Part shown: one piece after another, positions 17,794 through 36,964 of the stretch
Position numbering within the stretch: the first letter of the stretch is position 1
Layout: each line of letters opens with the position of its first letter
Source: Hyphomicrobiales bacterium
GTDB lineage: Bacteria; Pseudomonadota; Alphaproteobacteria; Rhizobiales; Rhizobiaceae
Assembly: GCA_900471815.1 (NCBI GenBank)
Contig: UICE01000002.1
Location: 260,764-324,763, forward strand
Direction of reading: 5' to 3'
Length of the DNA stretch: 64,000 nt
Translations under genes and position numbers: made by a program
Notes under the pieces: generated by a model
The model's input: the letters and a program-made list of their open reading frames with translations, nothing else
What the model was told of the DNA's origin: nothing
The model's database searches: none

Positions 17794-18313
17794 CTGTGGC
17801 TACCTCCGTACCTTCTTTGAAAATCACCACGCCGTAATGAGAACTCGCCACCCCGGTCACGATCACGCCCGGCAACGCCGATCCGAATAGTGCTGCTAGG
17901 TAGCGCCCCCCACGTCTAGGGGCAAGATGCGGTATCACCACTGACCGTAGGATAGGGGGCGAAAAATATAAAGAGAGCGATCTGATCTCCAAGGTCGAAG
18001 AAAGAAGATGGAATCCGTCGTGCAAATCGCTCGAGTCTTTGGATATCGAACTCAATATCCCACTAGTAGATCCTCCAATGGGCGCGACAGACTTTGGCCG
18101 TAGCGGAAAAGTCGGAAGCGTATCCGGGGTATCGCTGACCAACACCCCGATACCCGAAAAAAGCTCACCGCTTTCGTCGCGGATGCCTCGCAGCAGGTTG
18201 AACAGGCTTCCAATAATGGCGTGGTCCGTGGTCTCCATGACGTGCTTAATAAGGTAATCCACCGAGTGAAACAACGCTGAAGCTTGCATTCTCACGTTGG
18301 CGACATCAAGCAT
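17783..18313 (-). CDS. Unrecognised CBASS-linked 176-aa protein
   Basis: No family recognised. It overlaps cap3 by 8 bp upstream and the barrel-phosphorylase gene by 11 bp downstream, so it is clearly a member of the CBASS operon. The N-terminal 50 residues are helical (ASALFHSVDYLIKHVMETTDHAIIGSLFNLLRGI). A Ser/Pro-rich middle follows, then a hydrophobic stretch at about 138-165 (GGRYLAALFGSALPGVIVTG) that might be a membrane helix or a buried strand-helix. It could be a partner of the second effector, an inhibitor, or a target for conjugation; the sequence does not decide. Confidence 0.65.
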   Translation of the reverse strand: MLDVANVRMQASALFHSVDYLIKHVMETTDHAIIGSLFNLLRGIRDESGELFSGIGVLVSDTPDTLPTFPLRPKSVAPIGGSTSGILSSISKDSSDLHDGFHLLSSTLEIRSLSLYFSPPILRSVVIPHLAPRRGGRYLAALFGSALPGVIVTGVASSHYGVVIFKEGTEVATGER

Positions 18314-18761
18314 GGAAAGATACGTGCACTCCTTCTGGAAACGGTGCGAGACCCACGATGCAAAGTAGCAAACCTGAAGTATATAAGGTCGATTCCCTGA
18401 GTACGTTCATGATACTATAGATGTCGTTCTGGGATGGTGTCGGCACACTCTCTGGATGCGTATGCCAGTCCCCCACGTACTCAAGTCCAGCGGAGAAGTG
18501 CTCATCAATCTCCCTCTGTTCCGCATTGCGGTCTGGCCAAAAGTGGAACCGGCCCCGCCGATCCGCCGACCTGGGGCCAGTCGCTGCTACCACATGCCAA
18601 ACTTCACCTTGGATGTCGGCGAACAGCTGTCCTCCAGCCTCCCTGCTGAACCAACCCGTCTGTCGGTGGGCGTCGAAGACTTTGAGCACTTCCGGTGACA
18701 ACCGGACAGTAACGCGGTGGAACCGGACAACGACTGAACTATCTTCGAGGGTTACGGCCAT
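18306..18761 (-). CDS. cap3: Cap3, JAMM-family deconjugating peptidase
   Basis: A 151-aa metallopeptidase of the JAB/JAMM class that, in type II CBASS, removes the nucleotidyltransferase from conjugates formed by Cap2. All metal and catalytic positions are visible: Glu41 (SREAGGQLF), His100-x-His102 (GDWHTHPE) and Asp113 ten residues later (HxH-x10-D), with Ser110 in between. Its start overlaps the end of cap2 by 10 bp. The length is standard for Cap3. Placement immediately after cap2 confirms type II CBASS. Confidence 0.93.
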   Translation of the reverse strand: MAVTLEDSSVVVRFHRVTVRLSPEVLKVFDAHRQTGWFSREAGGQLFADIQGEVWHVVAATGPRSADRRGRFHFWPDRNAEQREIDEHFSAGLEYVGDWHTHPESVPTPSQNDIYSIMNVLRESTLYTSGLLLCIVGLAPFPEGVHVSFHA

Positions 18762-20437
18762 TGTCGTTCAATCACTCCTGATACCGATGCGAAGGGCTTT
18801 GCCGCCACGAACTCCTCTGTCCATTGTCCATCGGCCCGTGCGAGATTGCGATCTGATGTCCACCATGTTCGCCACGTGTCTGCCAACCCTGGCTCTAGCA
18901 ATCCATCGAGACAGAGGTCGGCGATCATCGCCTGGACCGCGACAACCTCAGCCGCCCCAAACGGGGTTGTGGCGTTTCCACATTCCTTGGGCAACTGACG
19001 ATCATTTCGCGACGCCGGACGCCGAGGCGAGCCATCCTCAAACCCATCCATAAACCCGGCGCCATCTCCCGATAGCAGCAACGCGTGACCTGCCACGCCC
19101 CATGCTTCCATCCAGCCGAATACGACGGCGATCGGTGGAGGTTCCTGCCGCGCGAACTCGGCGATGAAATTGTCGGCTTGCAAAGACCCTGTAGTCGCCA
19201 CGATGAGATCCGCGCCCTTCAAAATGTCATTTCCGGACACGACCAGATCCTGTATGGTTTTCGAGAAAGACCTTACCTCGATCATCTCCGGCAAATCGTG
19301 CAGTAGGTCCGCCGCCAGGGCCTCCGCTTTTGCATGACCCACACTGCGAGCGCCGAGTTCATGACGCCGAATGTTCTCCCAGCCGAGAATCTCGTGATCA
19401 ACAAGATCAAGGCGTCCGACTCCCGCCTTTGCGAGTAGGCGTGCGACGCCCGCGCCGACAGCTCCGCAACCAACCAAGACCACTCTTTTGTCGGCGAGAT
19501 TGTTCAGGGCAATTATGCTGCGAGACGCCGAACTATCAAGCAGTGACGTCCGCAGGCGCTGAATAGTGTAGTGTTTAAGAAGGTCGCGCACGGTGAGTTT
19601 GTCACCGGACCGAAGCTTGAGCCTCGGCCTCCGTCGAAAACCCTTCTTCTGCGGAGGCATGGTTTTCAGCAGGCGAACGCCTGCAAACTGGCGGCGGCCG
19701 GAAGGCGCGGTGCCGACGAGCACCAAGACGATTCCATTTGGCACCTGACTCAGAGCTTTCAACATCACCTCTCCACCATCGACAGCGTGCGTCTGGAGCA
19801 GTTTGAGAAGGCTTATGGGGTCTGTAGGAAACTCCGACGGCAAAGGGAACTTCTTGAGCTCGACAAAGTGGGCGGCATTTCTGTGCTTTGGTGCTGTCCC
19901 GTTCCGATTCTCCCACCAGCGAAGCATCAATTCCTTGCTGGCGAATGCAAAGATCTTGTCGTCAGTCAGGACATATGACCCTATCGATACACATTCCTCG
20001 TAGAGCAAGGACAGCGCCGGACTGCCTACATCGGCGCGTTGGCTCCAGTAGTTGGTGAAATCTTCCTTGAGATCGTCATCTTCGGCCCCAGTCTGATGCG
20101 CATTAAGGAGTCCGAGGGCTTCCGCCAGCACCTGTCGGGCGGCACCCGCGGGATCGATCGAAACCTCAACCTTGTTCAGGCACAGGCGACCATCAAGCTC
20201 GACATGAGGCAGATTTCGCGTGGCATCGTAGTTGATAATATAGGCATTCGGCCGCGAATACGGGAACGCGGCGTCGACTACAATGGACAGGTTGTGGCCC
20301 CAAACCTCGAACAGCCACATGTGACGGCCTGTCGAACGTCCCTTTGCATCGTTACAGGCACGATGTCCCTTATACTCTGGCCGATAAGCCTCGAAGAATT
20401 CGGACACGGCGTCGATGGCTTGGGCGATGGTGAGCAT
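18752..20437 (-). CDS. cap2: Cap2, E2-E1 fusion conjugating enzyme
   Basis: A 561-aa ubiquitin-transferase-like enzyme that joins the C-terminus of the CD-NTase to target molecules and primes signalling. Residues 1-115 are the E2-like domain with catalytic Cys86 (HVELDGRLCL). After a linker, residues 300-555 are the E1-like adenylation domain: VVLVGCGAVGAGVARLLAKAGVGRLDLVDHE (nucleotide-binding Gly loop at 323-328), an NIRRHELG element, and Cys486 (PKECGN) as the probable E1 cysteine. Twelve bases separate it from the nucleotidyltransferase gene and it overlaps cap3, so it is translated as part of one operon. Confidence 0.93.
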   Translation of the reverse strand: MLTIAQAIDAVSEFFEAYRPEYKGHRACNDAKGRSTGRHMWLFEVWGHNLSIVVDAAFPYSRPNAYIINYDATRNLPHVELDGRLCLNKVEVSIDPAGAARQVLAEALGLLNAHQTGAEDDDLKEDFTNYWSQRADVGSPALSLLYEECVSIGSYVLTDDKIFAFASKELMLRWWENRNGTAPKHRNAAHFVELKKFPLPSEFPTDPISLLKLLQTHAVDGGEVMLKALSQVPNGIVLVLVGTAPSGRRQFAGVRLLKTMPPQKKGFRRRPRLKLRSGDKLTVRDLLKHYTIQRLRTSLLDSSASRSIIALNNLADKRVVLVGCGAVGAGVARLLAKAGVGRLDLVDHEILGWENIRRHELGARSVGHAKAEALAADLLHDLPEMIEVRSFSKTIQDLVVSGNDILKGADLIVATTGSLQADNFIAEFARQEPPPIAVVFGWMEAWGVAGHALLLSGDGAGFMDGFEDGSPRRPASRNDRQLPKECGNATTPFGAAEVVAVQAMIADLCLDGLLEPGLADTWRTWWTSDRNLARADGQWTEEFVAAKPFASVSGVIERQWP

Positions 20438-20449
20438 GGACTTGCGCTA

Positions 20450-21472
20450 TCAGGCGTACCGTGTCTCACCCCGCTTGATAGCTGGCCCTACTTTCTCGGC
20501 AAGAGACTTGGCCCCATCCGGATCAGGCTGTTGTGCAAACCAGTTCGTGTCGAAGAACTTATCCCAGGCGCTCATCGCTTTCGAGTGATTGCAATCCCAC
20601 TCGTCGAGAACGTCGAGGTGTTTGAGCTTCTCATCGAGTTTGTCGTGAAGGAACTTGGCCTTCGCGTTCCCGTCGCCGATGATATTCTCGTTGAGAACCG
20701 GATGTTTGACGGCCTGCGTCCATGAAAGCTTATTCCTGATCGCCTTTGCGACATTCCGAAGTGCCTCGTCATCGCGATCGGCGACCTCGGTCCATTGATC
20801 GGCCGCGAGCTTGGAGATTACGAATCCATTGGAAATTCTGCCCTTCCAGCTTAAACGGCTCCGCGCGAAGGCCTTGAGCAGCCTGACAACTTCAACAAAC
20901 TGTCCTTTGTCGCCATCCTTGGTCGCGTTGGCGCAATTCTCCTTGTTGAAGTCTCGGAACCACGACGTTACTGCCAACGCATCCGAGCGTTTCCAACTGG
21001 AGCTTGCCAACTCGTAGTGATCTGATTCCTCTCCGGTCCAGACGTCTTTCACAACGACGTGACGGTAGACGGGTACATCGATGTGGTAGCCTTCGTTATA
21101 ATAGACTCGTACGCAGTTCTTGAGGACTTCTGGGGCGTCGTTGAAACGGTCATCCTGGAGGGCGTCGCAGACCATTTCTCGGGCCGCTAGGGGTGTCTTG
21201 TCGCCTCCATTCGGCCCAACGAGTCCCTCCTTCTTGAAGTAGACCCCGTCGTCGATGTCGTAGTCCTCACCGTCTTCGATGATCATCGTGCGCATCGCGT
21301 AGGAACCCTGCGTCCGCTGTCCGATCGGCGTCGGATCTTCGTTGGCGGCGAGACCGTTCTTTAGCCGCTTCCGGTTGGTCTCAGCCTTTGCAAAGATGTC
21401 TTTGCGGCTGTCGTTCGAAAGCCGAACTTGGTCACGCTGATATTTTGCTACCTGGAGGTGGCAGTCTCTCAT
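20450..21472 (-). CDS. CBASS CD-NTase (DncV-like cyclic oligonucleotide synthase)
   Basis: A 340-aa nucleotidyltransferase predicted to make a cyclic di- or trinucleotide on phage infection. The polymerase-beta motif is GSYAMRT (56-62) followed by Asp72-x-Asp74 in DYDIDDGVYF, and a third acidic residue Asp132 in YHIDVPVYR. The DIDDG form resembles DncV (clade A), so 3',3'-cGAMP is a fair guess, but the product is not proven. The chain ends in a flexible ETRYA tail; in type II CBASS this C-terminus is what Cap2 activates. Its ATG overlaps the capV stop by 4 bp (21469-21472). Confidence 0.92.
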   Translation of the reverse strand: MRDCHLQVAKYQRDQVRLSNDSRKDIFAKAETNRKRLKNGLAANEDPTPIGQRTQGSYAMRTMIIEDGEDYDIDDGVYFKKEGLVGPNGGDKTPLAAREMVCDALQDDRFNDAPEVLKNCVRVYYNEGYHIDVPVYRHVVVKDVWTGEESDHYELASSSWKRSDALAVTSWFRDFNKENCANATKDGDKGQFVEVVRLLKAFARSRLSWKGRISNGFVISKLAADQWTEVADRDDEALRNVAKAIRNKLSWTQAVKHPVLNENIIGDGNAKAKFLHDKLDEKLKHLDVLDEWDCNHSKAMSAWDKFFDTNWFAQQPDPDGAKSLAEKVGPAIKRGETRYA

Positions 21473-22605
21473 TTGAAAAACTCCTTGGGCACGCCTGCCT
21501 CCGGCATCGCAGGCAGGGACATCATGAGATTGTGAATCAGTTGACCCTGTGGATTCCGAGGGTCGTCACATGCGCTCTTAACCATATCGGCGTCTGTTAA
21601 CGCCTGGCTCGTGAGCGCATTCATCGCCTCTGGCCTACTATCGTCAAGACCGAGATACTCCAGTTTCGAGGCCGGAATTTTCTGCTGAGGGAAGCGGACG
21701 TGGTGCACTTCTCTGCCGCAATCGCTCAACACGTTGGCGAACATCCGGGCCATGTTGTCGAACGCAAATTCCTGCGCCGTGATGCTGAGCGGCGCAACGT
21801 CAGCACCCAATTTCCACTCAAGCATTGACCTGTGGATCTTTGTCGGTGAAATTTCCTCTCCCTCAGGGCGTGAGCAAGTGCCCAACGAGAAGATTTCGAT
21901 AGACTGCCCCTTTTCGGCGTTCATAAGCGCATCTAGCATAGCCACCATAACTGGGTTGTTTGCCCATAGTCCACCGTCGGCAAAGACCTCAATTTGCTCG
22001 TGCTTGCTGTCGGGGTTCTCGATCGCTGCCAGGGAGCGATAGATCGGAGCTGCGCTCGAAGCTAGGCAAATATCTACCAACTTATAATTGTCATCCCGGA
22101 CTCCGCTCGTTTTCGTCTTCTTGAAAATCCATGCCCGATGCGTGCTCATGGCCACCGCAGGGATCGATAGCGAAATTCCTCGTTTCTGGTAGACATCGAG
22201 CATGGTAATGTCGCCGAGTTCTACCTTAAGAGCTTCCCGTAGCGCCGCATCGCCGGCTCTGACGATGTTGCCACCTTTGGCAATCCGAGCCACGAGCTTT
22301 GCTTTGCTCTCGGTGATGCGCTCGGGGAAGATCAGTCCGCCCCACTCCCGATAGAGCTTGACGAGATCGCTCATAGGGCGACCGATGGCGGCCGCGCAGG
22401 CGATGATGGCCCCCGTACTCGTTCCTGCGATGAGGTCGAAGCCGCCGCCAAGATCGAGATGTTTCCCTCCGCGAATCCTGCGATATTGGTCGAGCAAGCG
22501 GTCGAGAAATGCTGCGGTGTAGATGCCTCGCATGCCGCCGCCGTCGATACACAAGACCCTAAAGGGCTTTCCTCCGGAGGACGTGGATTCAGCCGCACCT
22601 TCCAT
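21469..22605 (-). CDS. capV: CapV, patatin-like phospholipase effector
   Basis: First gene of the CBASS operon, 378 aa. It is a cyclic-nucleotide-activated phospholipase that degrades the inner membrane and stops growth of the infected cell. The patatin motifs are complete: oxyanion loop DGGGMRGIY (21-29), nucleophile Ser63 in GTSTG, and Asp210 in DGGLWANNP. The C-terminal 100 residues are the extra region found in CapV. No signal peptide, so it acts from the cytosol. The promoter must lie between 22606 and the broken integrase at 22871; the region is AT-rich but no consensus was resolved. Confidence 0.92.
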   Translation of the reverse strand: MEGAAESTSSGGKPFRVLCIDGGGMRGIYTAAFLDRLLDQYRRIRGGKHLDLGGGFDLIAGTSTGAIIACAAAIGRPMSDLVKLYREWGGLIFPERITESKAKLVARIAKGGNIVRAGDAALREALKVELGDITMLDVYQKRGISLSIPAVAMSTHRAWIFKKTKTSGVRDDNYKLVDICLASSAAPIYRSLAAIENPDSKHEQIEVFADGGLWANNPVMVAMLDALMNAEKGQSIEIFSLGTCSRPEGEEISPTKIHRSMLEWKLGADVAPLSITAQEFAFDNMARMFANVLSDCGREVHHVRFPQQKIPASKLEYLGLDDSRPEAMNALTSQALTDADMVKSACDDPRNPQGQLIHNLMMSLPAMPEAGVPKEFFK

Positions 22606-22870
22606 TACGTTGGTTTCTCTCTTTATCTCCCGCCAGATGCGGACTGTACAACGCTAAAAACTTGAAGTTTCACGTCTTCTAACATCGCGGAAACATATCA
22701 TGCTGGAATATAGAATCTAACAGGGTAGCACGCCCAAAGCGACGAAACTTGTTGACAGATCATCTTTATTTCAGTGATTCGACCCGCATCACTTATAAGG
22801 CAGAAATTTCGACCCATGGCCGGTATTAGATTGAAGCTACTCTCGGCAACTAATTCCGTTATCTCGGCCG

Positions 22871-23178: not shown

Positions 23179-23421
23179 CGGGGCCGCATCTCTTGGAGCA
23201 AATGTTCCCGACTTGAACAATTCGAGCAAACGGCTGTGCGCCCGCATATTGGTCGTATAAAGTGCCCCATCGTTCCCGGAAGCTGTCGTCTGTTTAAGAT
23301 GGCCGGCCGAGATTTCAAATATCGTTGCAAACAACGCACACGGATGTCTATTAGGTAGCGGCAAACCGGACGGTAGCCGCTATCTTCGCGACGGCGGACT
23401 CCGCCATTGAGGGGTACAGGC

Positions 23422-24651: not shown

Positions 24652-25057
24652 CGGAGGCGCAGGGAAAAACGTTCCCGCGATTTAACGCCAGATCTCACCT
24701 TCAATATCGCGACCATGCCAATTGTCCGGCAGCACCGCGCTCTTCTTTCAATCGCTCGACCGCGATTGCCCACTATCTAAAATTAGCCGTAGCTCGTGGC
24801 CCCCCGGCACGTCTAGGATTTGTGCAGCTGGATTCGCGTGCCGGATTGCCGGTTGCACAATCATCACCGCCTAGTGGAACGCTAAACAGCGCGCACGTTA
24901 ATGCCTTCAAGCGGACACGATCGCCATTTCGAATCGTGAGGGCTGTTCCGCTTGTGCGCGCCGTTTCCAGCAGCTATCTCAGCAGGCGTTGCGGATTCTC
25001 GCGCTAGTGCGCTAGGTTTTGCGCCTCTACACGCGTGACGCGGACCGGACAATGTGC
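24652..25057. other. Intergenic region between two convergent genes
   Basis: About 400 bp between the ends of the PLD gene and the GHKL-DUF3883 gene. One forward frame of 119 codons has no recognisable content. The spacing is long for convergent genes and may be leftover from rearrangement; I see no clear terminator or repeat. Confidence 0.35.
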
Positions 25058-28000
25058 TCAGCCGATATCCTCAATCTTGGCGCGTAACAAACCGAGCTCA
25101 AGCAGTATTTGTCGCGTCCCGAGCATCTTCGCAGGATTTGGAAAGCACTTTGCGATCGGCGCTTGATGGGCGACGCGGTAGACCCGCCACAGCTCGTAAC
25201 GATCGCGCTCGCGGAACGCCTTCTCGAATTCCTTGCGCGGCCAATCAAATCGGCCATCGGTTCCAGTGGTGGCCTTGACCTCGAGCCATCGCGGACGCCC
25301 TTCCGCATCGATCGAGCGGATATCATGGTCAGCACCGGGTTCGTCGCGAGATGTCCAGATGACGTATCGCTCCGGCTCGCCGTAGCCGAACTCGCGAACC
25401 TTCTTCAGCTCCATCCGAAAGATCAGTTCCTCGCCGCGCCGGCCGAGCAGCCCGGCGCGCTCAATTTCCGCCAGCGTTGGCGGCAGCCATGTGCCGGAGC
25501 TGCCGCCGCCACCCGAAGATTGCTGCGGCTCGATCCGGCTTCCCTTTGGAGGCGCGACTATCAGGTCGACTTCATCGATGTTGGGGAGCTTGAACGTTGG
25601 CGACGCGCGTGGTGGCGCAGGTGGTGGTGGGGGATTAGGGGGAAGAGGCGGTGCGGGCTCGACTGGTGGCGGCTCGGAGTCCCTCCTGTCCCCATCGGTG
25701 TCGAGATTATCAAAAACCTGGCGGAGCGCGATTTCCTCCGCGTCGTCGTCACCATCCTCCTCCTCAAAATCGCCATCACCGTCGTCTTCGAGTTCCCCTG
25801 CCCGCCCGCGCGGGATCCCCATGCGATCAAGATAGTCGATAAGCTCTTCGAGCGTCCCTGCGAGGACCAATGGAAGGAACGCATTGGCAAGACTTCGCAT
25901 CGTCCCCACGCTGGCCGCGCCGGCGATCTCCGCGAGCGCCTCGGCCAGCAACAGCTGAAAGCCACCCTTTGTTTTTGGCGCCACAAAATCGATACGTTGC
26001 TCGCTGACAGCAACTTGCGCTGGCAACAGCACGCTGGCGCCGCTGACCGAATAGCGACGTCCGATCGACTGAAAGAACGCAATCTCGGTGATCACCGCCA
26101 AGCGCCCGGCGATTTCGCTGCGGCTCGCCGGAACGAACCCCGCATGCCCGTGGCGGTTGCGGAATGCGACTTCATGCAGCGCGCACGCAAATAGCGGTCG
26201 ATGCAACATCGCAAGGAAGCGCTCGCTGTGCTTTGGCTTGTACCAGAGATGCGGGCGTCCGGGTGGCCCAAGCTCAGGCTGGCCGGTTCCGGCGATGGCC
26301 GATAGTGGTTTAATACCGAGCGCGGTAAAGAAAACCCGTGATCTTTCTGAGCGATCGATAATACCGATCTTGCTATGGGTCGCGCGCAATTCCTGTTCAA
26401 GCGCTGCAAAGTCGGGCTCGACCAGCTGCCCTGCCCGAAGCTGGGCAAGCGTGAACAGACGAGAACGGTCGTCGAGCAGGCAGCTGACATTCTCCAAGCC
26501 ACTTGGTAATCCCAATAGACCGCGAAGGTCATATGCTTCGAGCAATGCACGACGTCGGCGCTGGTCGATCGGTCCCCCGCTGTTCCACTCGATATCCACG
26601 AATTCAAAGAAGCGTGTCCAATGCTCGTCCGTTGGCGACGCCGGCGCGCCGAGGGCCTGGTAGGCCTGTCCGACATCGTCGGTGTGCCGAAAGACCGGGA
26701 TTGCTTCGGCCAACAGTGCGGGGATCCGCTGGCCGACCAGGATTTCCGACGGGGCATGATAGTGGTTCTGTACCCAGCAGATACTTTGGTCCGCAATCTC
26801 GGCTTTTGCGCGTTTTTCGCGTCCGATCGCCGTGACAAGGGCCGGATAAACGAGGTCCGGCCGCGGCAGCGGCTCCATCCGGTCGCGATGCGCCTCGATG
26901 ATCTCAAGCAGCGTGTCGCTGTCCGGCGCGGTTTTCAGCTTGAGCTTGTGATGAAGAAGGTCGTTCGTGCTGGCGACAATCAAGTCATCTTTACCGATGC
27001 TGAGCCGGTTGATCGCGGTATCTAGGTGGAGAGTCTCGGGTGCGGCGAGTCGCCCGGACCGGGTCCTGAGCCAGGAGATCTCGCGAAGTTCTTCGACGAT
27101 CGCGGTGCTCAGCAATCGGAGATTCTCGGTGAGCAGCTTCGCGAAGCGCTCCGCGGTCTCCGGCTGATCCTTAACGAGGCCGGCGAAGCGAACGAGATCG
27201 GCACCGCCCAGGTTTTCACGAATCCGCAGGCGCGCCATCAGGTTTGGTGCTGCACGCAATTCCTTGGACGGTCCGTCGATCGCGGGATCAAGGAATCGGG
27301 CGATCGTCTTGCTGAGATTGACCATCTCCACCGGGGCGACCCAGTCGCCACGCTGGTTCTTCACCACGGGATTGCTGCGCAATGCCGACAGGGCAGCTCG
27401 GCTGATCGGCGCCTCGCGTGCGAGCAACTTTTGATAAAGCGTTTCGCGCTCCCGGTCGTCCGAAGGCGCGGTCGCGGCGCGCTTGGAAGCATCGATCAGC
27501 CATTGCTCTTCGTCGAAGACGCGGCTGTGGCCGGAAATCGCCTTGAACGGCGCAAGGTCGGGGTGAAGTCGGTTCGTCTCGGGTTCAGGGCAATCAGCCC
27601 AGAGGTCCGGATCGACGATCATCAGCTCGATGGCAGGTCTAAGGTCGCCTGTTACGCTGAGCGTCGAGGCCGTGTTATCGAGATCAAACCGCATCTGCTT
27701 TGAGAGCCGTCGCGGGAATGCCGAAAGCGCCGATGCTTGGCGCTTTTGCATATCCAGCTCGCGCATCGACTTGTCATAGTTGGTGAAATGATAGTTCGCC
27801 GCCCCATCGATCGTAGTTTTCAGGCTCTTGTCATTTTCACCCGCGCAGCGCAACCGAACGAGGGATGCGAGGGTAAACGGCTTCGCCCCGCATTTTTCCG
27901 CAAGCTTACGCAGATTCTCGTCAGCGCTCAGCGCTGGATCGAGATAGCTCGCGTCGCCGAGGAAGCCGGCATAGAGGTCGTCGCTTGGCAGCACGATCGC

Positions 28001-29326
28001 GGCCGCTTTGGCAAATCGTTTGTCGCCCCTTGCGCGCGTGGGCCAGCATGCATCCTCTCTGAGCCGTTCCGCCAACGCCCTCGCGAACCCATCTGGCGTG
28101 GTGGCACCGACGCCCGCAAGCATTGTAAAGGCGTCGGCGCCATATCTCACGAACCAGTCGGAAACAAGGAGGTCCATCACCAGCTCGACCGCCTGATTGA
28201 TCAACCAGTCGTTCCACTGGAGATCGTTGAGGCCGCTGCGATCTTGGTTGAGTTCGAACGGAGCGCTCACGCTCACCGGGCAACCGGTTCGCGAGGCCGG
28301 AGCCTTTAATGGATAGTAGAAGTGGCCATTATGGCCGATATCGATCTTGCGTCGCACGATCGGCACGGAGACCGCGATCTTCACCCTGCCGCCGGCGACC
28401 CTGTAGTACGATGGGAACCGCCGCGCCGCATATTCCGCCGGCAATTCTACGGTTCGCGAGAACTCCTCTTCCTGGAAAGAGACGACGCGTGCGTCGCTAT
28501 CACTCATCCGGCCGCGCCGGAAGATCATCGATACTCCGGATGTGCGGCAGCGATCTTGTGACGCCTCTTGTCGCCAGCGCAGTATACGCCCGGTTCGAAT
28601 CGAACGAACGTTGACCTCGCGAAGGCCTGACTTCTTCCCGCTATGCGCGAGCTTGAGCAGTGTATCGGGCATGCTCGTCGCCATCAGCTCCAGTGCATGC
28701 GCCTCTCGCTCAACAGTAAACGCCTCCAGGGTTTCGGTCGGTCGCGTCCTATAGGGCACGAACAGGCGGACGCCCTTCACGCCCCGAGATTGTGGATCGG
28801 GGGCGCGACCGGTCTCCTGCGTCTGAAGATCGAGGAGGGCTACCTGCCCGGCAGATCGGACGTGGATTTCGTTCCCGAAGCGGAAGAGCGATCGCAGCCC
28901 GAAATTCTTTGAACCTATACCATTCTCCTTCGGCGCGACGACTTCTGCACCTCGAGTGCCCATGACGTTGCCGGTCCCGACGATCACCGAGAGCCGCTCC
29001 CAGCCGCGGCGCTCGATATTGCGACCTGAACCGGTCACCTCGACCGATTTGCTCCCGAAGGTCAGCGTTAGCTTGTCACCACCGCCGTCATACTCGTTTT
29101 GAACGAGCTCGCGTAGGACGTCGCCGGCATCATGGCCTGCCACGAATTGTTCGATGACGCTCGAACCAATTCGCGTACGCCGGCTGGCACCATAATCGGG
29201 CGGCACATAATCAGGTTCGTCAATCAAGATATGCGGCGAAAATGTGGCCCTTGTTTTGCTCACTGGCCGAGAGGCCCTGGCGGTCGCCGACGCCGAACTC
29301 GCCGAATCTTTCCCTCCGTCAGCCAC
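25058..29326 (-). CDS. Giant GHKL-ATPase (sacsin-like) protein with C-terminal DUF3883 nuclease-like domain
   Basis: A 1,422-aa protein. Residues 50-160 form a GHKL/Hsp90-type ATP-binding site: Glu73 and Asn77 in LRELVQNEYD, VTGSGRN, and the lid KENGIGSKNFGLRS (133-146). About 1,000 residues of unassigned sequence follow. A linker with Glu/Asp runs and then Pro runs lies at about 1160-1260. The last 139 residues are DUF3883, with Asp1335 and Glu1349-Val-Lys1351 in a PD-(D/E)xK-like D...ExK pattern, suggesting DNA cleavage. The start is GTG 29326. An ATP-driven sensor coupled to a nuclease in a defence island is the likely role. I know no named system with this exact architecture. Confidence 0.8.
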   Translation of the reverse strand: MADGGKDSASSASATARASRPVSKTRATFSPHILIDEPDYVPPDYGASRRTRIGSSVIEQFVAGHDAGDVLRELVQNEYDGGGDKLTLTFGSKSVEVTGSGRNIERRGWERLSVIVGTGNVMGTRGAEVVAPKENGIGSKNFGLRSLFRFGNEIHVRSAGQVALLDLQTQETGRAPDPQSRGVKGVRLFVPYRTRPTETLEAFTVEREAHALELMATSMPDTLLKLAHSGKKSGLREVNVRSIRTGRILRWRQEASQDRCRTSGVSMIFRRGRMSDSDARVVSFQEEEFSRTVELPAEYAARRFPSYYRVAGGRVKIAVSVPIVRRKIDIGHNGHFYYPLKAPASRTGCPVSVSAPFELNQDRSGLNDLQWNDWLINQAVELVMDLLVSDWFVRYGADAFTMLAGVGATTPDGFARALAERLREDACWPTRARGDKRFAKAAAIVLPSDDLYAGFLGDASYLDPALSADENLRKLAEKCGAKPFTLASLVRLRCAGENDKSLKTTIDGAANYHFTNYDKSMRELDMQKRQASALSAFPRRLSKQMRFDLDNTASTLSVTGDLRPAIELMIVDPDLWADCPEPETNRLHPDLAPFKAISGHSRVFDEEQWLIDASKRAATAPSDDRERETLYQKLLAREAPISRAALSALRSNPVVKNQRGDWVAPVEMVNLSKTIARFLDPAIDGPSKELRAAPNLMARLRIRENLGGADLVRFAGLVKDQPETAERFAKLLTENLRLLSTAIVEELREISWLRTRSGRLAAPETLHLDTAINRLSIGKDDLIVASTNDLLHHKLKLKTAPDSDTLLEIIEAHRDRMEPLPRPDLVYPALVTAIGREKRAKAEIADQSICWVQNHYHAPSEILVGQRIPALLAEAIPVFRHTDDVGQAYQALGAPASPTDEHWTRFFEFVDIEWNSGGPIDQRRRRALLEAYDLRGLLGLPSGLENVSCLLDDRSRLFTLAQLRAGQLVEPDFAALEQELRATHSKIGIIDRSERSRVFFTALGIKPLSAIAGTGQPELGPPGRPHLWYKPKHSERFLAMLHRPLFACALHEVAFRNRHGHAGFVPASRSEIAGRLAVITEIAFFQSIGRRYSVSGASVLLPAQVAVSEQRIDFVAPKTKGGFQLLLAEALAEIAGAASVGTMRSLANAFLPLVLAGTLEELIDYLDRMGIPRGRAGELEDDGDGDFEEEDGDDDAEEIALRQVFDNLDTDGDRRDSEPPPVEPAPPLPPNPPPPPAPPRASPTFKLPNIDEVDLIVAPPKGSRIEPQQSSGGGGSSGTWLPPTLAEIERAGLLGRRGEELIFRMELKKVREFGYGEPERYVIWTSRDEPGADHDIRSIDAEGRPRWLEVKATTGTDGRFDWPRKEFEKAFRERDRYELWRVYRVAHQAPIAKCFPNPAKMLGTRQILLELGLLRAKIEDIG

Positions 29327-29927
29327 GACTTAGCCCCTTTTGCCCGCCATTCCTCATTCGCTGATCGAACGTAGTTGGTGACTATGGGCAAAGCAATATT
29401 CAATCAAAGCGAAAGCCGCTCGGTTCGCTCGAAACATCGTACGTACAGCTATTGTCACTAGCACTGCACTTGATATCTGCACCAGCGTGCTCAATCCCCA
29501 CCCAATATTCGCTGCAGTTACGCCACTTCAGATGGAAGCGGACGAGCCGCAAGTGACCCAGTCCGAGACATCTCGCTTGTTCAGAGAAGGTCGATAGTTA
29601 GATCGTCCGCATTACAGTTGCGCCTTTTAGGGCCGTCAGGCAGCAATCGGCCCCATCTCAGTCATTCAAATGTACTCGCGCCATGGATTGCTTAGGCTTG
29701 AGAATGCCTAAATTTCCACTCAACTATCGGGGCTCGTTGTTTTAACAAAATATCAAACCTATGCTTGAATGAAGCGCTGATACTCTACCTTTCTTTTTTG
29801 CTTAATTAAGTCGTAGTTCACAGTCGTTCAGCAAGCCCGATTTCGGTGAAAGCGGATATCCCCATCCAGCGATTCTCGATGTTTCACTCGCAGGCCTGGG
29901 CCCAAGAATCGGGTTAGCCCCACGTCA
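29327..29927. other. Intergenic region without recognisable gene
   Basis: About 600 bp between the giant gene's start and the end of hsdM. No frame above 60 codons with recognisable content was found. It has to contain the promoter of the leftward giant gene (probably 29,340-29,450). The AT-rich middle near 29,740-29,820 shows nothing further. Confidence 0.4.
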
Positions 29928-31565
29928 CTAATCAGCTATTGGCAACGGGGATAGACCAAGTTCTTTCAGAAACGTGTTGTGCCTCGCTGTTGACTCGCGA
30001 ACCTGCTTCCCAATTTCGATTAACTCGTCGTGCGTAGCCTTCAGATCGATCGCGATCCCCTGTTCGGCTGTGCTGATGTAGCGGGAGATATTAAGGTTGT
30101 AGCCTTCCTCCTCGATTCGCCCCATGCCGATACGCTTGGAATAACGGTCCTCTTCCTTCCGAAATTGGTAAGTGTCGATGATCTTGGCGATGTGCTTGTC
30201 TGAGAGATTGTTCTGGCGCTTGCCTTTATCAAAATGCTCAGGCCCAGCCGCGTTGATGAAGAGCACGTCGTCGGGCTTCTTGCACTTCTTAAGCACGAGG
30301 ACGCAGACGGGGATGCCGGTGGAGTAGAACAGGTTAGCGGGCAAACCGATGACCGTGTCAATATGTCCGTCTTTAAGCAGCTTGGTGCGAATGCGCTCTT
30401 CGGCTCCACCTCGGAATAGCACGCCGAGGGGGAGGATGATGGCCATCACGCCTTCGTCTTTCAGAAAATGAAAACCGTGCAGCAGGAAGGCAAAATCGGC
30501 GGCGGACTTGGGTGCTAGACCATAGTTCGTGAAGCGCACATCATCGCCCATCGCGTCGGCCGGGTCCCATCGGTAGCTGAAAGGCGGATTGGCGACGATG
30601 GCGTCGAAGGCGGGTTTCCTGGCCGGATTCTGCTCGCGCAGCATGTCCCAGTCGTTGGTTAGCGTATCGCCGTGGTAGATTTCGAATTCCGTGTCCTTCA
30701 TCCCATGCAGCAACATGTTCATGCGGGCAAGATTGTAGGTGGTGATGTTACTTTCCTGCCCATAAATCTTGCCGATACCATGCGGCCCCATGCGCTTGCG
30801 CACGTTCAGCAGAAGCGACCCGGAGCCGCAGGCAAAGTCGAGAACGCTGGTAAGGCGATCTTTCTTGCCGGTAGCGGGTTCTTGGCTGTCAAGGGTGACG
30901 ATGGCGGACAGGATATCGGAAATCTGTTGCGGGGTGTAGAACTCACCCGCCTTCTTGCCAGAGCCGGCCGCAAACTGTCCAATAAGGTATTCGTACGCAT
31001 CGCCCAGAGCATCGATATTTGAGGAGAATTCCGCAAGCCCTTTAGCGATCTCCGCGATGATAGAGCAGAGCTTGGCGTTACGATCTTCATACTTGCGGCC
31101 GAGTTTGTCCGAGCCGAGATTGATCTCGGAGAATAGTCCGCTGAAGGTGCTTTCGAAGGATTCGTTTTCGATATATTTGAAACCCGTTTGAAGCGTGTTG
31201 AGCAGTTCGCGATCCTGGGTGCGGGCCATGTTGGCAATGCTGTTCCACAGGTGCGGCGGTTGGATGACGTAATGCACCTTGCGGCGCATCTGTTTTTCAA
31301 ATTCCGCAACGTCGTCCGGGTTGTCTTGATACCAGGCTTGCAGAGGCGTGCTTGCTCCGGTTTTCAGCAACACGTCGATGGGGAAATCCGGATAGTCCTT
31401 TCCCAACTCCTTCTTCGCAGCCGTCTCATAGTTGTCCGACAGATAGCGCAGGAACAGGAAGGACAGCATGTAGTCGCGGAAATCGTCCGCGTTCATTGCG
31501 CCGCGCAGTCGGTCAGCGATGTTCCAGAGGGTCTTGCCGAGTTGCTTTTGGATTAGGTCATTCAT
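29928..31565 (-). CDS. hsdM: Type I restriction-modification methylase HsdM
   Basis: N6-adenine methyltransferase subunit, 545 aa, that with HsdS protects host sites and with HsdR forms the restriction complex. The N-terminal helical HsdM_N domain (5-140) precedes the catalytic domain: SAM-binding motif I DFACGSGS (243-250) and catalytic motif IV NPPF (326-329). A GEFYTPQQIS stretch (208-217) is typical of the family. Its ATG overlaps the prrC stop by 4 bp. It is unusual that the methylase is the last gene of the operon, since protection is normally made first. Confidence 0.95.
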   Translation of the reverse strand: MNDLIQKQLGKTLWNIADRLRGAMNADDFRDYMLSFLFLRYLSDNYETAAKKELGKDYPDFPIDVLLKTGASTPLQAWYQDNPDDVAEFEKQMRRKVHYVIQPPHLWNSIANMARTQDRELLNTLQTGFKYIENESFESTFSGLFSEINLGSDKLGRKYEDRNAKLCSIIAEIAKGLAEFSSNIDALGDAYEYLIGQFAAGSGKKAGEFYTPQQISDILSAIVTLDSQEPATGKKDRLTSVLDFACGSGSLLLNVRKRMGPHGIGKIYGQESNITTYNLARMNMLLHGMKDTEFEIYHGDTLTNDWDMLREQNPARKPAFDAIVANPPFSYRWDPADAMGDDVRFTNYGLAPKSAADFAFLLHGFHFLKDEGVMAIILPLGVLFRGGAEERIRTKLLKDGHIDTVIGLPANLFYSTGIPVCVLVLKKCKKPDDVLFINAAGPEHFDKGKRQNNLSDKHIAKIIDTYQFRKEEDRYSKRIGMGRIEEEGYNLNISRYISTAEQGIAIDLKATHDELIEIGKQVRESTARHNTFLKELGLSPLPIAD

Positions 31566-32725
31566 GGTGCCGAGACTTTTTCAGGTGCAGGTACAACTGC
31601 TAGGATTGGTGCGGGAGCTGGCGCTGGTGCCGGGACTGATGCGTGCAGTACAAAGTTGTATTTGCTCTTTATTTTGGTGAAGACGCTATTGAACAGGCTC
31701 TTGCTGTCTGCGGTAAGTTCGTCGCCTTCGAAGTAATAGACCTTCTTGTGGGAAAGCATGTTGATAATTTGCGCCACTTCGTCGGGATTGGTGATGCCGA
31801 CTTGTTCAAGCACGTAACTGAATTGACCAACGCCAAGAAATGAAGCGATGTTCTCAAGCACTTGGCGGAGCAGTGCGAAGTGAAAAGACTTCACTCCGTC
31901 ACTGGCATAAGCCTGCTCCAACACCTGCAGTAACCGCAAGTGATATAGGAAAACATCATTGCTTCCGGTCTCTAGCGCGAGGTTACCATCCTTGGCGCTC
32001 AAAATGCAGACTCTTGCCTTCTTATTGAATTTGCTAGCCTTATCCCCCCTCTTCAACCAATCGGCTAAAATTGCAAAAAGACCAAGGTGGTGAGTGGTGA
32101 TGATCACCTTTCGCTTCTCAAAATGTTCTTCGATCAAATCAAAGAGCGTTGAAGCGGTAATAAAGATGTTGTGGTCATCCAAACTCGAAACAGGGTCATC
32201 AATAAAGAAATGAGACGACTGCTTGTCCGCCCAGCCTTCGACTTCGAAGAGTGCGAGAAAGAAGCACCAAATAAAAATCCGCTCTTCGCCGCGCGAAATT
32301 TTGAAGGAGACTTTTGAGATGTTGGTTGGATCGTCCTCTTCAGCTTGCTCGTAGAAGAATGATATCGCTTGAATACCGTCTTCGGGATTCTCGTGAGGGA
32401 TGAATTCAAATCGGTAGCACGGTCGGAACCTGTTCAGTTTCTCGCGAATGTCATCCTCGGAAAGAGAGCTGTGAAACCGGTTCAAGCTACTCTTCCGAAT
32501 ATCCAATCGGATTATTTCGCCGTCGTTCCCAGGATCATTCTGCCAAACGAAAATATCCTCACTATAGGCGTTGTAGTAGACCCCGGCGTGTGATCCATCT
32601 TCATCCTTCGTCGTGTCTTTGTAGGCCACGGAAAGCCTCGTTTTTCCAGTGGCGTTGAACGCATAAATTAAGACGATCTTTTCTTTCGCGTCTCGGATTT
32701 CCTTTGCGACCTCGATGTGGGTCAT
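31562..32725 (-). CDS. prrC: PrrC-type anticodon nuclease
   Basis: A 387-aa homologue of PrrC, the tRNA-Lys anticodon nuclease held silent by a type I restriction complex and released when a phage disables restriction. Residues 1-265 are an ABC-type ATPase: LIYAFNATGKTRLS with Walker A, VYYNAYSEDIF, signature SRGEE (144-148), Walker B FFIDDPVSSLDD (173-184) and the H-loop TTHH (210-213). The nuclease triad Arg287-x3-Glu291 (LLRQVLE) and His326 (MLSHKK) matches Arg320, Glu324 and His356 of E. coli PrrC. A Pro-Ala repeat tail (364-387) is extra. It sits between hsdS and hsdM with 4-bp overlaps on both sides. Confidence 0.85.
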   Translation of the reverse strand: MTHIEVAKEIRDAKEKIVLIYAFNATGKTRLSVAYKDTTKDEDGSHAGVYYNAYSEDIFVWQNDPGNDGEIIRLDIRKSSLNRFHSSLSEDDIREKLNRFRPCYRFEFIPHENPEDGIQAISFFYEQAEEDDPTNISKVSFKISRGEERIFIWCFFLALFEVEGWADKQSSHFFIDDPVSSLDDHNIFITASTLFDLIEEHFEKRKVIITTHHLGLFAILADWLKRGDKASKFNKKARVCILSAKDGNLALETGSNDVFLYHLRLLQVLEQAYASDGVKSFHFALLRQVLENIASFLGVGQFSYVLEQVGITNPDEVAQIINMLSHKKVYYFEGDELTADSKSLFNSVFTKIKSKYNFVLHASVPAPAPAPAPILAVVPAPEKVSAP

Positions 32726-33969
32726 GCCTCCAACTCCTCCTGCGATGGGAAAAGTAGCTGCATCAACCCTTTCTTGTGGGTCTTAATGGTGTCGAGCTTT
32801 TGAGTCTGGGCGGCGATAAGTTCGTCCAGTGAAGTGAGGAAACTCGCGATGCGTTGCTGTTCGGGCCGACATGGAATCACCAACTCATAAGCCAGAAGTG
32901 AATCACGGTTGACCTTTGGGATTTTGCTCCGGTCAGAATGCTTTGCGGTGTATTCAATAAAACTATCCGACCGGAGAAGGTAAACTAGATATTGCCGAAG
33001 CAAATTTTGATTGGATGGACGGATTGGATATATGTCGGCGCTACAAATTCCCTCGAATTCGGGGGTGGCCACTTTATTCAACGTAGGGCGAATCTTTGAA
33101 TAAAGGATATCCCGTCCATCGAAGAGATATTTTCCGCTAATAAGTCCAAGCTCTCTTGCGGTTCTCACGCCCTGAAGGTTTCCTGTCTGTGACTCAATAT
33201 TCTCGCCGCCAATATGCGGCATGTCGCAGTATGGCGGCTCTGTCGGGTCAACTTGGCCGGATGCAACATCCACAATTTCGCCAAGGGTCTTTAACTCCCA
33301 CTGCCCGGTTTTTTGGAATTCGGGGAAGCGGAGGTGGGGTTGGGTTTCGGCGGGGATAGTTACGCCGTTCTCAATTCTCTCTGGTTGGGGGAATAGTTGC
33401 CGCATTAGCCCTTTTTTATGGGTTTTGAGCGCCTCCACTTTGCGGGATTGGGCCGCAATCAGTTCGTCCACAGAGGTCAGGCAGTCGGCTATCTTTTGTT
33501 GTTCGGCAAGAGATGGGACTGCGGTTTTGATTTTCTCAATATTCGCCTTCGAGAGGCTTGGAACACCGCCAGCTTCATTATGCTTCGGCCAATCAATTCT
33601 CTGAAAGATTGCGAAGATGAACCTGGGCACGCATTGATTGAACGAATGGGTGTAGAACAAGGTGTCCACCGTCCAAAACCTTCCAGTAAGGAACATTGGA
33701 TTGTTAATTGTACCTTTTCTGCCGATACAGACGCTCTCGCCATCATGCAAGAATTCGTCGACTGAACGCATGTATCCGCCAGAACCATAGACAGGAACGT
33801 CTCCCGGCGGGAGATGCTTATGGTCTCTCCCGTTTCCAATTGTAAATAACCTTCCAAGTGATTTTTTATCCCACGCCGCTGCATTACGAAACTCCGGAAA
33901 ACGCAGCTGGGGCGTCACCAAGAGTTTGGCGTCTTCTGTCATGGTTGTGGTTTTCGCCTCATTGCTCAT
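32722..33969 (-). CDS. hsdS: Type I restriction specificity subunit HsdS
   Basis: DNA recognition subunit of 415 aa that fixes the bipartite target of the methylase and nuclease. Two target-recognition domains (about 20-165 and 220-365) each end in a conserved helical spacer: IADCLTSVDELIAAQSRKVEALKTHKKGLMRQLFP and IASFLTSLDELIAAQTQKLDTIKTHKKGLMQLLFP-like segments, which set the spacing between half-sites. It overlaps hsdR by 11 bp and prrC by 4 bp. The recognition sequence cannot be predicted by eye. Confidence 0.93.
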   Translation of the reverse strand: MSNEAKTTTMTEDAKLLVTPQLRFPEFRNAAAWDKKSLGRLFTIGNGRDHKHLPPGDVPVYGSGGYMRSVDEFLHDGESVCIGRKGTINNPMFLTGRFWTVDTLFYTHSFNQCVPRFIFAIFQRIDWPKHNEAGGVPSLSKANIEKIKTAVPSLAEQQKIADCLTSVDELIAAQSRKVEALKTHKKGLMRQLFPQPERIENGVTIPAETQPHLRFPEFQKTGQWELKTLGEIVDVASGQVDPTEPPYCDMPHIGGENIESQTGNLQGVRTARELGLISGKYLFDGRDILYSKIRPTLNKVATPEFEGICSADIYPIRPSNQNLLRQYLVYLLRSDSFIEYTAKHSDRSKIPKVNRDSLLAYELVIPCRPEQQRIASFLTSLDELIAAQTQKLDTIKTHKKGLMQLLFPSQEELEA

Positions 33970-36964
33970 ATGCGCTGAGTCCTGAAATGTCGCGGCCTTG
34001 GACGCGTTTGGTTAGGAGGGGCAGCAGGTCGGCCATGAGTTCGAGTTCCGCGATGCGGCGAGCTTTCCAGTTCAGGCCCAGCGGTTCCATCAGGTCGGTA
34101 AGTTGCTCGCCATCGAAGATCATACGTTGCAGAATGCCGTCGACGAAGATTTGCAGGGCAGAGGTAGTGAGGCCATGCTTGTCCGCGATCTCAGCCAGTT
34201 CCGTCTCTTCCTTTTCCGCTTTGAAGCGCGTGTAGCCTTCGCGAATTGCCTTTTCGCTTAGGCCTTCACCCGCTTTCAAAGTGGCGATGTAGGCGGCAAT
34301 GTCTTCGCTTTCGTTCATGAACTTGGCATCGGACTGAATGAGGCCGACGAGTTGCTCGCGGCTCATCTGCTGCTTGCCCGGCGTCGCTTGAGAGAAACGG
34401 GCTATTAGCCCCATGATGTAGTCATAGTCAATAACGGCAGAAGCAAAGAGGACGAACTCGAAATCGAGCTGGTCCACTTCTGGGCCCGGTTTGTCCGTGC
34501 CCTTGCCCTGTTGGGCCCTGAGGCGTTGGGCGGTTTCCAAATAGGCACCGCGGAAGCCGAGCAGATTTTCCTTGGGCAGAATCTGCTCGATGGCGGCGGC
34601 GTTTTCGGCGGTGATGTCAGTGTATTGGTCGAGCTGGGTCTTGAGGCGCTGTATTTCCTTGAAGCGCTCGATGAAAACCGCACGGGCGTCGTCGCCCTTG
34701 AGGTTGGGCACCGCGTCCGGGGCGCAGTCGAGGCCTTGGGATTTCATGAAGGTGTCTAGCTTTTGCACTGCGACTTCCAATCTCTGGATGACGACGGGAG
34801 CCTTGTCCACCAGCCAGATTTCGCGTGCTTTTTCTCCCGCTGATTCGCCAGAGAAAAGGGCGATGGCGGCATCGACGGCGTCCTGCTGCTGGCGGAAGTC
34901 CAGAATGTTGCCGTAGGGTTTCGTGGCGTTGAGTATACGGTTGGTGCGGGAGAAAGCCTGAATCAAGCCGTGGTGCTTGAGCTTCTTGTCCACATAAAGC
35001 GTGTTCAGGTACTTTGAATCAAAACCGGTGAGCAGCATGTCAACCACGATGGTGAGGTCGATTTTCTGCGCATGCGGGTGGTCGGCATTGGGCCACTGCT
35101 GGTCTTTGATGCGCTTCTGCACGTCCTGATAATAGAGGTCGAACTCGCCAATGCTGTGGTTGGTGCCGTAGCGGGCGTTGTAGTCGGCGAGGATAGCCAT
35201 GAGGGCTTCCTTCTTCTTCTCTGGCTCTACAGCGTTGTCCTCTTTTTCTTGCGGCAGATCTTCCTGAATCTGCTTCACATCGGGATCGCCGTCGGCGGGT
35301 GGAGAAAAGACACAAGCGAGGTTCAGCGGCTGGAAGTCGGGGGTGGCCTTTTGCTTCTCTGCCTGCAGCTCGGTGAAGAGGCGGTGGTATTCGATGGCGT
35401 CATTGATGGACGCGGTGGCGAGCAGTGCATTGAACTTGCGCCCGCCGGTGGCGGCGTCGTGCTTAGCGAGGATTGCCTCGATAACGGCCTTCTTCGCGAG
35501 CGGTTCGCCGGGCTTGGGCAGCTTCTTGCCTTCCGGCTTGAAGAAATCGACATGGAAGCGGAGGACGTTTGCGTCCTCGATGGCGTGCGTGATGGTGTAC
35601 GCGTGGAGGCGCTTCTGGAAGAGTTCACTGGTCGTCTGAAACGAGGCTTCTTGATCCTCTATCTTCACGCGGCTGGAGTTTTCTTCAAAGATGGGCGTGC
35701 CGGTAAAGCCGAAGAGTTGAGCCTGAGGGAAGAACTCTTTGATAGCTTTATGGTTCTCGCCGAACTGGGAGCGGTGGCACTCGTCAAAGATGAAGACGAC
35801 ACGTTTGTCTTGAAGCGGTGCGAGTTGCTCCTTGTAGGTCTGTCTGCCGTCCTTTTTTTGCTGCTTGTTGCGCTTACTGTTTTCATCCAGGGCAAGGCCG
35901 AGTTTCTGGATCGTGCAGACAATGACCTTGTCGGCGTAATCATCTGAGAGGAGACGGCGCACGAGGGAGGCGGTGTCGGTGTTTTCCTCTACGCAGCCTT
36001 CCTGGAATTTGTTGAACTCTTCGCGGGTTTGGCGGTCGAGGTCCTTGCGGTCTACGACGAAGAGGCATTTTTCAATATCGGGGTTGTCCTTGAGGAGGGT
36101 TGAGGCCTTGAAGGAGGTAAGCGTCTTGCCGCTGCCGGTGGTGTGCCAGATATAACCGTTGCCGCAGTTCTGGTTAATGCAGTCCACAATCGCCTTCACC
36201 GCATAAATTTGATAAGGCCGCATCATCAGCAGCTTCTGCTCACTGGCAACGAGCACCATGTAACGGCTGATGGTCTGCCCGAGAGTGCATTTAACCAGAA
36301 AGGTATTTGCGAAGCTATCGAGGTGGGTGACCTTCTTGTTGTCTATGTCTGCAAATTCGTAGACCGGTAGAAAGCGCTCTTCGGCATTGAAAGCGAAGTG
36401 CCGGGTGTTGTTGTTAGCGAAATAAAAGGTGCGGTCGCGGTTGCTGACGATGAAAAGCTGGAGGAAGCAAAGAAGCGTCTTGGTGTAGCCGTTGCCGGGA
36501 TCGTTCTTGTAATCGACGATCTGCTCCATGGCCCGGCGGGGGCTGATACCGAGGGTTTTCAGCTCAATTTGAACGGCGGGGACGCCGTTGATCAGAAGTA
36601 TGACGTCGTAGCGATGATGGCTATTATCCGTATTGATGCGCAGCTGATTCACCACCTCGAAGGTGTTTTTGCACCAGTCCTTGATGTTGACGAGGGTGTA
36701 GTTGAGCGGAGTTCCGTCATCGCGGGTGAAGCTGTTGCGCTCGCGCAGGGTGCGGGCGGCAGTGAAGACGTCAGGAGTGACAATCTCGTCAACAAGACGA
36801 GTGAATTCGGCCTCAGTGAGGCTGACGCGGTTTAGCGCTTCGAACTTCTCACGAAAATTCTGCTCCAGCGTGGCGCGGTCCTGGATATCCGGACGATATT
36901 CGTATTTGAGGTCCTGCAGTTTCGTAACAAGTGACGCTTCAAGGCCGCTTTCAAGTGTGTTCAT
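33959..36964 (-). CDS. hsdR: Type I restriction endonuclease and translocase HsdR
   Basis: Motor and nuclease subunit of about 1,001 aa. The N-terminal nuclease domain carries Asp120 and Glu134-Leu-Lys136 (VQIELKTLG). The SF2 helicase motor has Walker A TTGSGKT (275-281) and motif II DECHRSQFG (394 onward), with further motifs near FSRTNRILN. The C-terminal part is helical and binds HsdM. ATG 36964 starts MNTLESGLEASLV, the usual HsdR beginning; an in-frame start at 37027 adds 21 unlikely residues. It is first in the operon, so restriction may be expressed before methylation unless translation is tuned. Confidence 0.93.
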   Translation of the reverse strand: MNTLESGLEASLVTKLQDLKYEYRPDIQDRATLEQNFREKFEALNRVSLTEAEFTRLVDEIVTPDVFTAARTLRERNSFTRDDGTPLNYTLVNIKDWCKNTFEVVNQLRINTDNSHHRYDVILLINGVPAVQIELKTLGISPRRAMEQIVDYKNDPGNGYTKTLLCFLQLFIVSNRDRTFYFANNNTRHFAFNAEERFLPVYEFADIDNKKVTHLDSFANTFLVKCTLGQTISRYMVLVASEQKLLMMRPYQIYAVKAIVDCINQNCGNGYIWHTTGSGKTLTSFKASTLLKDNPDIEKCLFVVDRKDLDRQTREEFNKFQEGCVEENTDTASLVRRLLSDDYADKVIVCTIQKLGLALDENSKRNKQQKKDGRQTYKEQLAPLQDKRVVFIFDECHRSQFGENHKAIKEFFPQAQLFGFTGTPIFEENSSRVKIEDQEASFQTTSELFQKRLHAYTITHAIEDANVLRFHVDFFKPEGKKLPKPGEPLAKKAVIEAILAKHDAATGGRKFNALLATASINDAIEYHRLFTELQAEKQKATPDFQPLNLACVFSPPADGDPDVKQIQEDLPQEKEDNAVEPEKKKEALMAILADYNARYGTNHSIGEFDLYYQDVQKRIKDQQWPNADHPHAQKIDLTIVVDMLLTGFDSKYLNTLYVDKKLKHHGLIQAFSRTNRILNATKPYGNILDFRQQQDAVDAAIALFSGESAGEKAREIWLVDKAPVVIQRLEVAVQKLDTFMKSQGLDCAPDAVPNLKGDDARAVFIERFKEIQRLKTQLDQYTDITAENAAAIEQILPKENLLGFRGAYLETAQRLRAQQGKGTDKPGPEVDQLDFEFVLFASAVIDYDYIMGLIARFSQATPGKQQMSREQLVGLIQSDAKFMNESEDIAAYIATLKAGEGLSEKAIREGYTRFKAEKEETELAEIADKHGLTTSALQIFVDGILQRMIFDGEQLTDLMEPLGLNWKARRIAELELMADLLPLLTKRVQGRDISGLSAYEQ

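Follow-up and report, generated by a model that had tools for sequence, protein, structure and literature searches.

Does the 1,422-residue protein encoded near the middle of a 64,000-nucleotide stretch of a Hyphomicrobiales bacterium (GenBank GCA_900471815.1, contig UICE01000002.1, positions 260,764 to 324,763; the whole stretch is called the window hereafter) act as a defence system by itself and, if so, is this system a new one or a form of one already named? The protein is most likely a single-protein, ATP-gated nuclease with presumed defence activity against foreign DNA, and a presumed substrate and trigger. With a probability of about 0.6, it is a divergent member of the Tiamat (TmtA) kind of single-protein factors acting against phages and other mobile genetic elements, in which an ATP-driven clamp would close to position the nucleases. 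Sequence and structure models support the presence of both enzymatic domains and their catalytic residues, the arrangement of the parts, mobility as one gene, an accessory distribution and the island context; we infer ATP hydrolysis, dimerisation, DNA as the substrate, the trigger and defence itself.

The open reading frame (ORF) reported in a preliminary description of the window is confirmed and intact. It is not a chance ORF, since eight full-length relatives align with the protein from end to end at 33–91% identity, and one more, from a viral contig, has 39% identity over its best segment. The gene is under purifying selection, strongest on both enzymatic domains. Against the Ensifer and Sinorhizobium copies, the ratio of non-synonymous to synonymous substitution rates (dN/dS) is 0.22 overall, with 0.08–0.12 in the nuclease, 0.13–0.15 in the ATPase module, 0.23–0.26 in the middle and 0.25–0.28 in the linker; the Paraburkholderia/Janthinobacterium pair gives 0.19, the ATPase module being lowest (0.10), followed by the nuclease (0.14). 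The predicted catalytic residues of both domains are invariant in all ten aligned members, the alignments excluding a frame-broken copy from a metagenome-assembled genome (L011), a C-terminal piece (L012), L006 (identical to L003) and the own-genome loci. A promoter and terminator scan gave three promoter-like sites (1.5 expected), none of them on the reverse strand upstream of the start, and no terminator.

In the structure models, the N-terminus is a GHKL ATPase followed by a transducer. The Bergerat fold, the N-box E/N/D residues and the glycine-rich lid motif of the GHKL group are all present; the Asp of DxGxG is absent from the family's ATPase in the profile alignment, Gly99 standing in its place in the query, and the lid (residues 117–138) is modelled with low confidence. 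Structure matches of the N-half model fall mostly on residues 52–429 and those of the C-half model mostly on the nuclease, while the VIA alignments reach through model residues 345–386, i.e. residues 388–429 of the protein, in the transducer region. Among the matches listed, the ATPase fold is nearest to sacsin SR1, followed within about 2 Z units by SMCHD1, MORC3 and Hsp90; MutL, MORC and SMCHD1 match it about as well as Hsp90. Identity to the MORC, SMCHD1, MutL and sacsin ATPase modules is 9–17% (50 structure matches listed). Of these proteins, only sacsin (SR1) was also matched among PDB sequences, together with TRAP1, and this by a Tiamat-like profile, not by that of the query family, which matched nothing there up to E 1.

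At the other end of the protein, the core fold, the helix-A Glu, the D and the ExK of the PD-(D/E)xK group are all present in the modelled NOV_C (DUF3883) domain, with SPARDA nucleases and Hjc resolvases tied as its closest folds. The union of a GHKL ATPase with a PD-(D/E)xK-type nuclease, which the preliminary description had proposed, is borne out by the folds and the catalytic residues. A fold of the Hjc type points to branched DNA as a candidate substrate. As for the domain itself, passages of PMC3710099 term DUF3883 a novel restriction endonuclease domain fused to SNF2 helicases in restriction-modification (R-M) operons, and NOV_C is common to those R-M-operon proteins, NO VEIN and the 1,422-residue protein. 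A NO VEIN-annotated protein carries, according to a passage of PMC12289216, an HSP90-like ATPase domain. NO VEIN, a plant nuclear factor of cell-fate decisions, is likened here to the 1,422-residue protein by domain description. A search of the open-licence literature gave no primary paper on NO VEIN.

The TmtA of PADLOC is presumably the Tiamat of Millman 2022, where this single gene is said to have given protection against phages. Passages of a 2026 review (PMC12926258) still list its mechanism as unknown. The open-licence literature, in the parts covered, held surveys counting Tiamat, and neither a paper on its mechanism nor a description of the query clade, subscription papers lying mostly outside the search. 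The query matches the TmtA models PDLC03964-03972 (best E 2.5e-23), as do all nine members of the family alignment A1 (best E 1.5e-33). The claim that no named system has this exact architecture was too strong, because the TmtA profiles describe the same domain order and match the query; well-matching proteins share with it an N-terminal GHKL (in Tiamat, of sacsin type) and a C-terminal NOV_C in one large protein. The preliminary description had also named a known defence-system profile covering this architecture as something that would refute its proposal: such profiles do match, but their coverage is patchy. The query reaches 80 bits against PDLC03965 in two stretches, not over its whole length, whereas for three plasmid proteins (L059, L060 and L061) one TmtA model aligns without interruption, at 1,100–1,804 bits; L064 and L063 also match in pieces (260 and 189 bits).

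SACS was found in all five compared TmtA proteins (over the Pfam cut-off in four, L060 being below it) and NOV_C in four, not in L059; the query has no Pfam SACS match and resembles sacsin by fold only. For the NF047352 sacsin ATP-binding model, the query scored 12.6 bits (below cut-off) and its viral-contig relative 16.6, against 65–78 for the compared TmtA proteins, all five of which pass, a trait of these proteins and not a published Tiamat criterion. In hhalign, A1 aligned with a seven-protein Tiamat-like alignment at 98.1% probability (E 7.4e-14, 843 columns, 15% identity), the homology spanning residue 69 to about 1000; by part, E was 2.5e-4 for the GHKL region, 1.3e-5 for the transducer, 3e-5 for the middle and 0.28 for NOV. 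With a second, shorter set of three sacsin-NOV proteins, E was 8e-8 for the whole, and 1.4e-3, 2.7e-5, 0.26 and 4.5e-4 for the same parts. In a midpoint-rooted tree of the GHKL region (20 of 21 rows, L063 being left out and L064 forming a long branch), the ten family rows grouped together with support of 100/100; their branch is 2.85 changes per column long and stands separate from the seven Tiamat-like and the three second-set rows. L062, L052 and L053 were placed with TmtA in this tree without a PADLOC protein scan, L052 and L053 having been found with a TmtA model and L062 by tblastn. On account of the TmtA matches, hhalign and the tree, the query is, by sequence comparison, a homologue of Tiamat and belongs to the same kind, yet in a separate, divergent clade that present profiles catch only partly.

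Concerning the long middle, a hairpin-plus-helix pattern was found in the models at five of six positions (428, 553, 655, 850 and 950); near 754, a weak part of the C-half model, it was seen by sequence. The search pattern also matched one site each in the ATPase and nuclease domains. When six 101-residue segments were compared as profiles, E was 8e-4 (r3-r4), 1.2e-3 (r4-r5) and 1.5e-3 (r2-r4), while the best of 40 pairs including a non-module segment reached 0.025. Among the 15 module pairs, three reach E 0.002, three are near 0.02 and the remaining nine are at 0.19 or worse; r3-r4 and r2-r4 are in register and r4-r5 is slightly off. Compared with itself, the middle profile aligned at a shift of about 100, clearly for the central modules only. 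From the E values and the register of the module pairs, repeats are likely in the central modules and unproven in the outer ones, the middle consisting at least partly of modules of about 100 residues. Single modules r2-r6 gave no clear match to the Tiamat profile (best E 0.014).

Full-length copies were found in 1/121 sampled genomes of the own family, that one being the source genome, with no copy in the one other genome of the same genus that was searched. The corresponding counts were 1/297 genomes for the order and 1/398 for the phylum, with scoring limited to a few candidates in each genome; 19/296 and 21/397 other genomes, respectively, gave NOV_C-region matches only, in ORFs of 157–462 residues. 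GTDB contigs held at least 11 loci, a lower bound because the scan is seeded by short exact peptides taken from a single protein; these include the C-terminal piece, the broken copy and two loci of Paraburkholderia elongata (L003 and L006), which lie on different contigs, are identical over all 24,164 bases (a duplication or an assembly artefact) and were therefore counted as one. By tblastn, phages gave no match and plasmids one partial match, in Aminobacter, over several short annotated genes; viral contigs held one homologue (L066, IMG/VR UViG_3300003963_000008).

The DNA shared with the two closest copies (Table 1) comprises the gene, 90–320 bp upstream and about 310 bp downstream. Beyond this cassette, blastn (E 1e-5) of window 20001-34000 against the Ensifer LC163 and S. 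kostiense loci gave no match. Likewise, blastp (E 1e-6) of the genes of window 14000-41000 against ten relative loci gave no match besides the query gene and one 45-residue stretch directly downstream of it, within the cassette. The single-gene behaviour first proposed was upheld, the adjoining window genes recurring in 0/10 relative loci. Farther-off matches are integrase-type genes and, besides these, two single pairs (L004 with window 6285-7154, L003 with window 10128-11360). The gene has a GC content of 61.0%, whereas the remainder of the window has 53.3%. Judged from these comparisons, the family is a rare, accessory clade that moves as a one-gene cassette. A diverged 366-bp direct repeat (74%) flanks the Ensifer copy (L002 6690-7050 and 14603-14943); its sequence is related to DNA adjoining the S. 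kostiense copy and may bear on cassette movement.

Table 1. Features of the window, with coordinates, strand and main characters.
Feature	Coordinates	Strand	Characters
Tiamat-like GHKL-NOV_C protein gene	25058..29326	-	1,422 aa, GTG start; aligned end to end with nine full-length relatives
GHKL/Bergerat ATPase domain	28577..29173	-	Residues about 52-250; E73, N77, D80; NGIGSKNFG 135-143
Transducer-like domain	28037..28576	-	Residues about 251-430; type typical of Hsp90/MutL/MORC
Putative modules of about 100 residues	26405..28045	-	Residues about 428-974; each ends in a beta hairpin: 428, 553, 655, about 754, 850, 950
Linker, acidic then Pro-rich	25472..25831	-	Residues 1166-1285; disorder predicted for most of it
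PD-(D/E)xK nuclease domain (NOV_C/DUF3883)	25061..25474	-	Residues 1285-1422; E1299/E1300, D1335, E1349, K1351
Shared cassette	24746..29649		Match ends at 29649 for Ensifer LC163 and at 29416 for S. kostiense; about 91% DNA identity
Type I R-M operon hsdR-hsdS-prrC-hsdM	29928..37027	-	Neighbour; island context, not part of the system
CBASS operon	16351..22605	-	Neighbour; CapV-like lipase, cyclase, E2/E1, JAB, Cap15-PNP gene; context only

As to how such a protein might work, the MORC/MutL-like ATPase suggests clamp closure: the N-terminal GHKL module would dimerise upon ATP binding and close as in MORC, MutL and SMCHD1, while the long modular middle would sense or hold the foreign substrate. 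Closure would then bring two Hjc-like C-terminal nucleases, held on a flexible linker, into cutting position, and DNA, perhaps branched or replicating phage DNA, would be cut. The nearest known case in working is VcSduA, of Shedu type I-D (paraMORC3), which by analogy could serve as a model for an ATP-gated nuclease. In the passages of PMC12137116 on this protein, an N-terminal GHKL ATPase and a C-terminal PD-(D/E)xK nuclease occupy one polypeptide, as in the query, and point mutants of either domain abolish phage protection. The Shedu nuclease, however, is a DUF4263 domain whereas that of the query is NOV_C, and VcSduA is much shorter, to judge by its published mutants E27A/K557A (PMC12137116). 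A Pfam scan of the query at E up to 1 gave NOV_C only, without DUF4263, and its PADLOC matches included no Shedu profile.

Other readings were weighed against that of a Tiamat-like clamp. Tentatively, and at odds rather unfavourable to it, the clade could be an independent defence family, distinct from Tiamat in its present profiles, in which the GHKL clamp and the modular middle would topologically capture branched or replicating foreign DNA to be cut, on ATP closure, by the Holliday-junction-resolvase-like nuclease; if true, this would be immunity in one gene that senses structure, not sequence or modification. Unlikely, too, is a sensor role in which the Hsp90/sacsin-like module binds a phage protein, in a client/chaperone-like manner, instead of DNA, the trigger freeing the nuclease on host and phage nucleic acid and leading to abortive infection. 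The ranking of ATPase folds, headed by sacsin SR1 among the matches listed, speaks for it, and the modular middle could serve as a protein-binding scaffold; but MutL, MORC and SMCHD1 suit the ATPase about equally to Hsp90, and the C-terminal fold is nearest to DNA nucleases, Hjc resolvases included.

A GHKL clamp joined to an Hjc-like nuclease also recalls the logic of the MutL endonuclease, so that a MutL-like repair or mismatch-type factor carried on accessory DNA, without a defence role, may be imagined; to this the very patchy distribution, one-gene mobility and defence-island position are ill-suited, and we regard it as improbable. Least credible of all would be an accessory subunit of the adjoining type I R-M/PrrC operon, or of the adjoining phospholipase D (PLD) gene, instead of a stand-alone factor. 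The gene does lie downstream of hsdM on the same strand and adjoins the DrmC-like PLD gene, yet a gap of 601 bp separates it from hsdM, the cassette borders exclude the hsd and PLD genes, and blastp at E 1e-6, over as much as 10 kb on either side, matched these genes in 0/10 relative loci.

The defence island announced by the preliminary description was recovered, the gene sitting between the type I R-M/PrrC operon (hsdRSM and prrC) on one side and an operon of the cyclic-oligonucleotide-based anti-phage signalling system (CBASS) on the other. In the former, a PrrC-like anticodon nuclease gene (window 31562-32725, reverse strand; PADLOC E 8e-104) lies between hsdM and hsdS; PrrC guards R-M systems. 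A tRNA-Ser (window 37844-37935, reverse strand) beside this operon is a possible island border, and Rfam gave nothing besides this tRNA over 22600-38000; an integrase gene lies at window 1250-2194. At the end of the CBASS operon, a 480-residue gene (window 16351-17793, reverse strand) joins a Cap15-type cyclic dinucleotide receptor (PF18153) to a nucleoside phosphorylase (PF01048), possibly a second CBASS effector beside the CapV-like phospholipase. Between the query gene and CBASS, the DrmC-like PLD gene (window 23407-24651, forward strand) has a PADLOC E of 1.1e-10 and an NCBIfam score below cut-off; among the seven other proteins scanned alongside, none was named as a further protein of DISARM. 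As a partner of the query gene it was rejected, being outside the shared cassette and without a match in the ten relative loci.

The neighbours of the relatives' copies were scanned by Pfam (20 proteins) and PADLOC (10), picked by size from a much larger number and without a background control. Restriction-type neighbours occur in three relatives: GmrSD_N/NsnA (L007), a ResIII helicase (L008) and Mrr_N with GmrSD_N (L009). Among the others, L003 has a DUF4145 protein that weakly matches PD-T7-4, L002 a UvrD helicase and insertion sequence genes, L005 genes for conjugation and of ArdC-like type, L011 a HATPase_c_3 protein, L004 metabolic genes of an ordinary sort and L010 another NOV_C protein. 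The latter, in Actinomadura (L010 14802-17147, 781 residues), lies directly downstream of the homologue and was matched by no PADLOC model at E 1e-5. In the viral contig, the homologue occupies 1-4257, at the very start of a prophage-like sequence, and may be cargo or host flank; within about 15 kb it is followed by genes for a ParB-methylase, two integrases and a terminase.

Present profiles cover such proteins only partly. Being intact, mobile by itself and mapped as to its catalytic residues, the clade offers a tractable protein for a testable model of a clamp-gated, Hjc-like nuclease. It also connects bacterial immunity with plant NO VEIN, through the domains that make up the protein, and with the sacsin, MORC and SMCHD1 ATPases.

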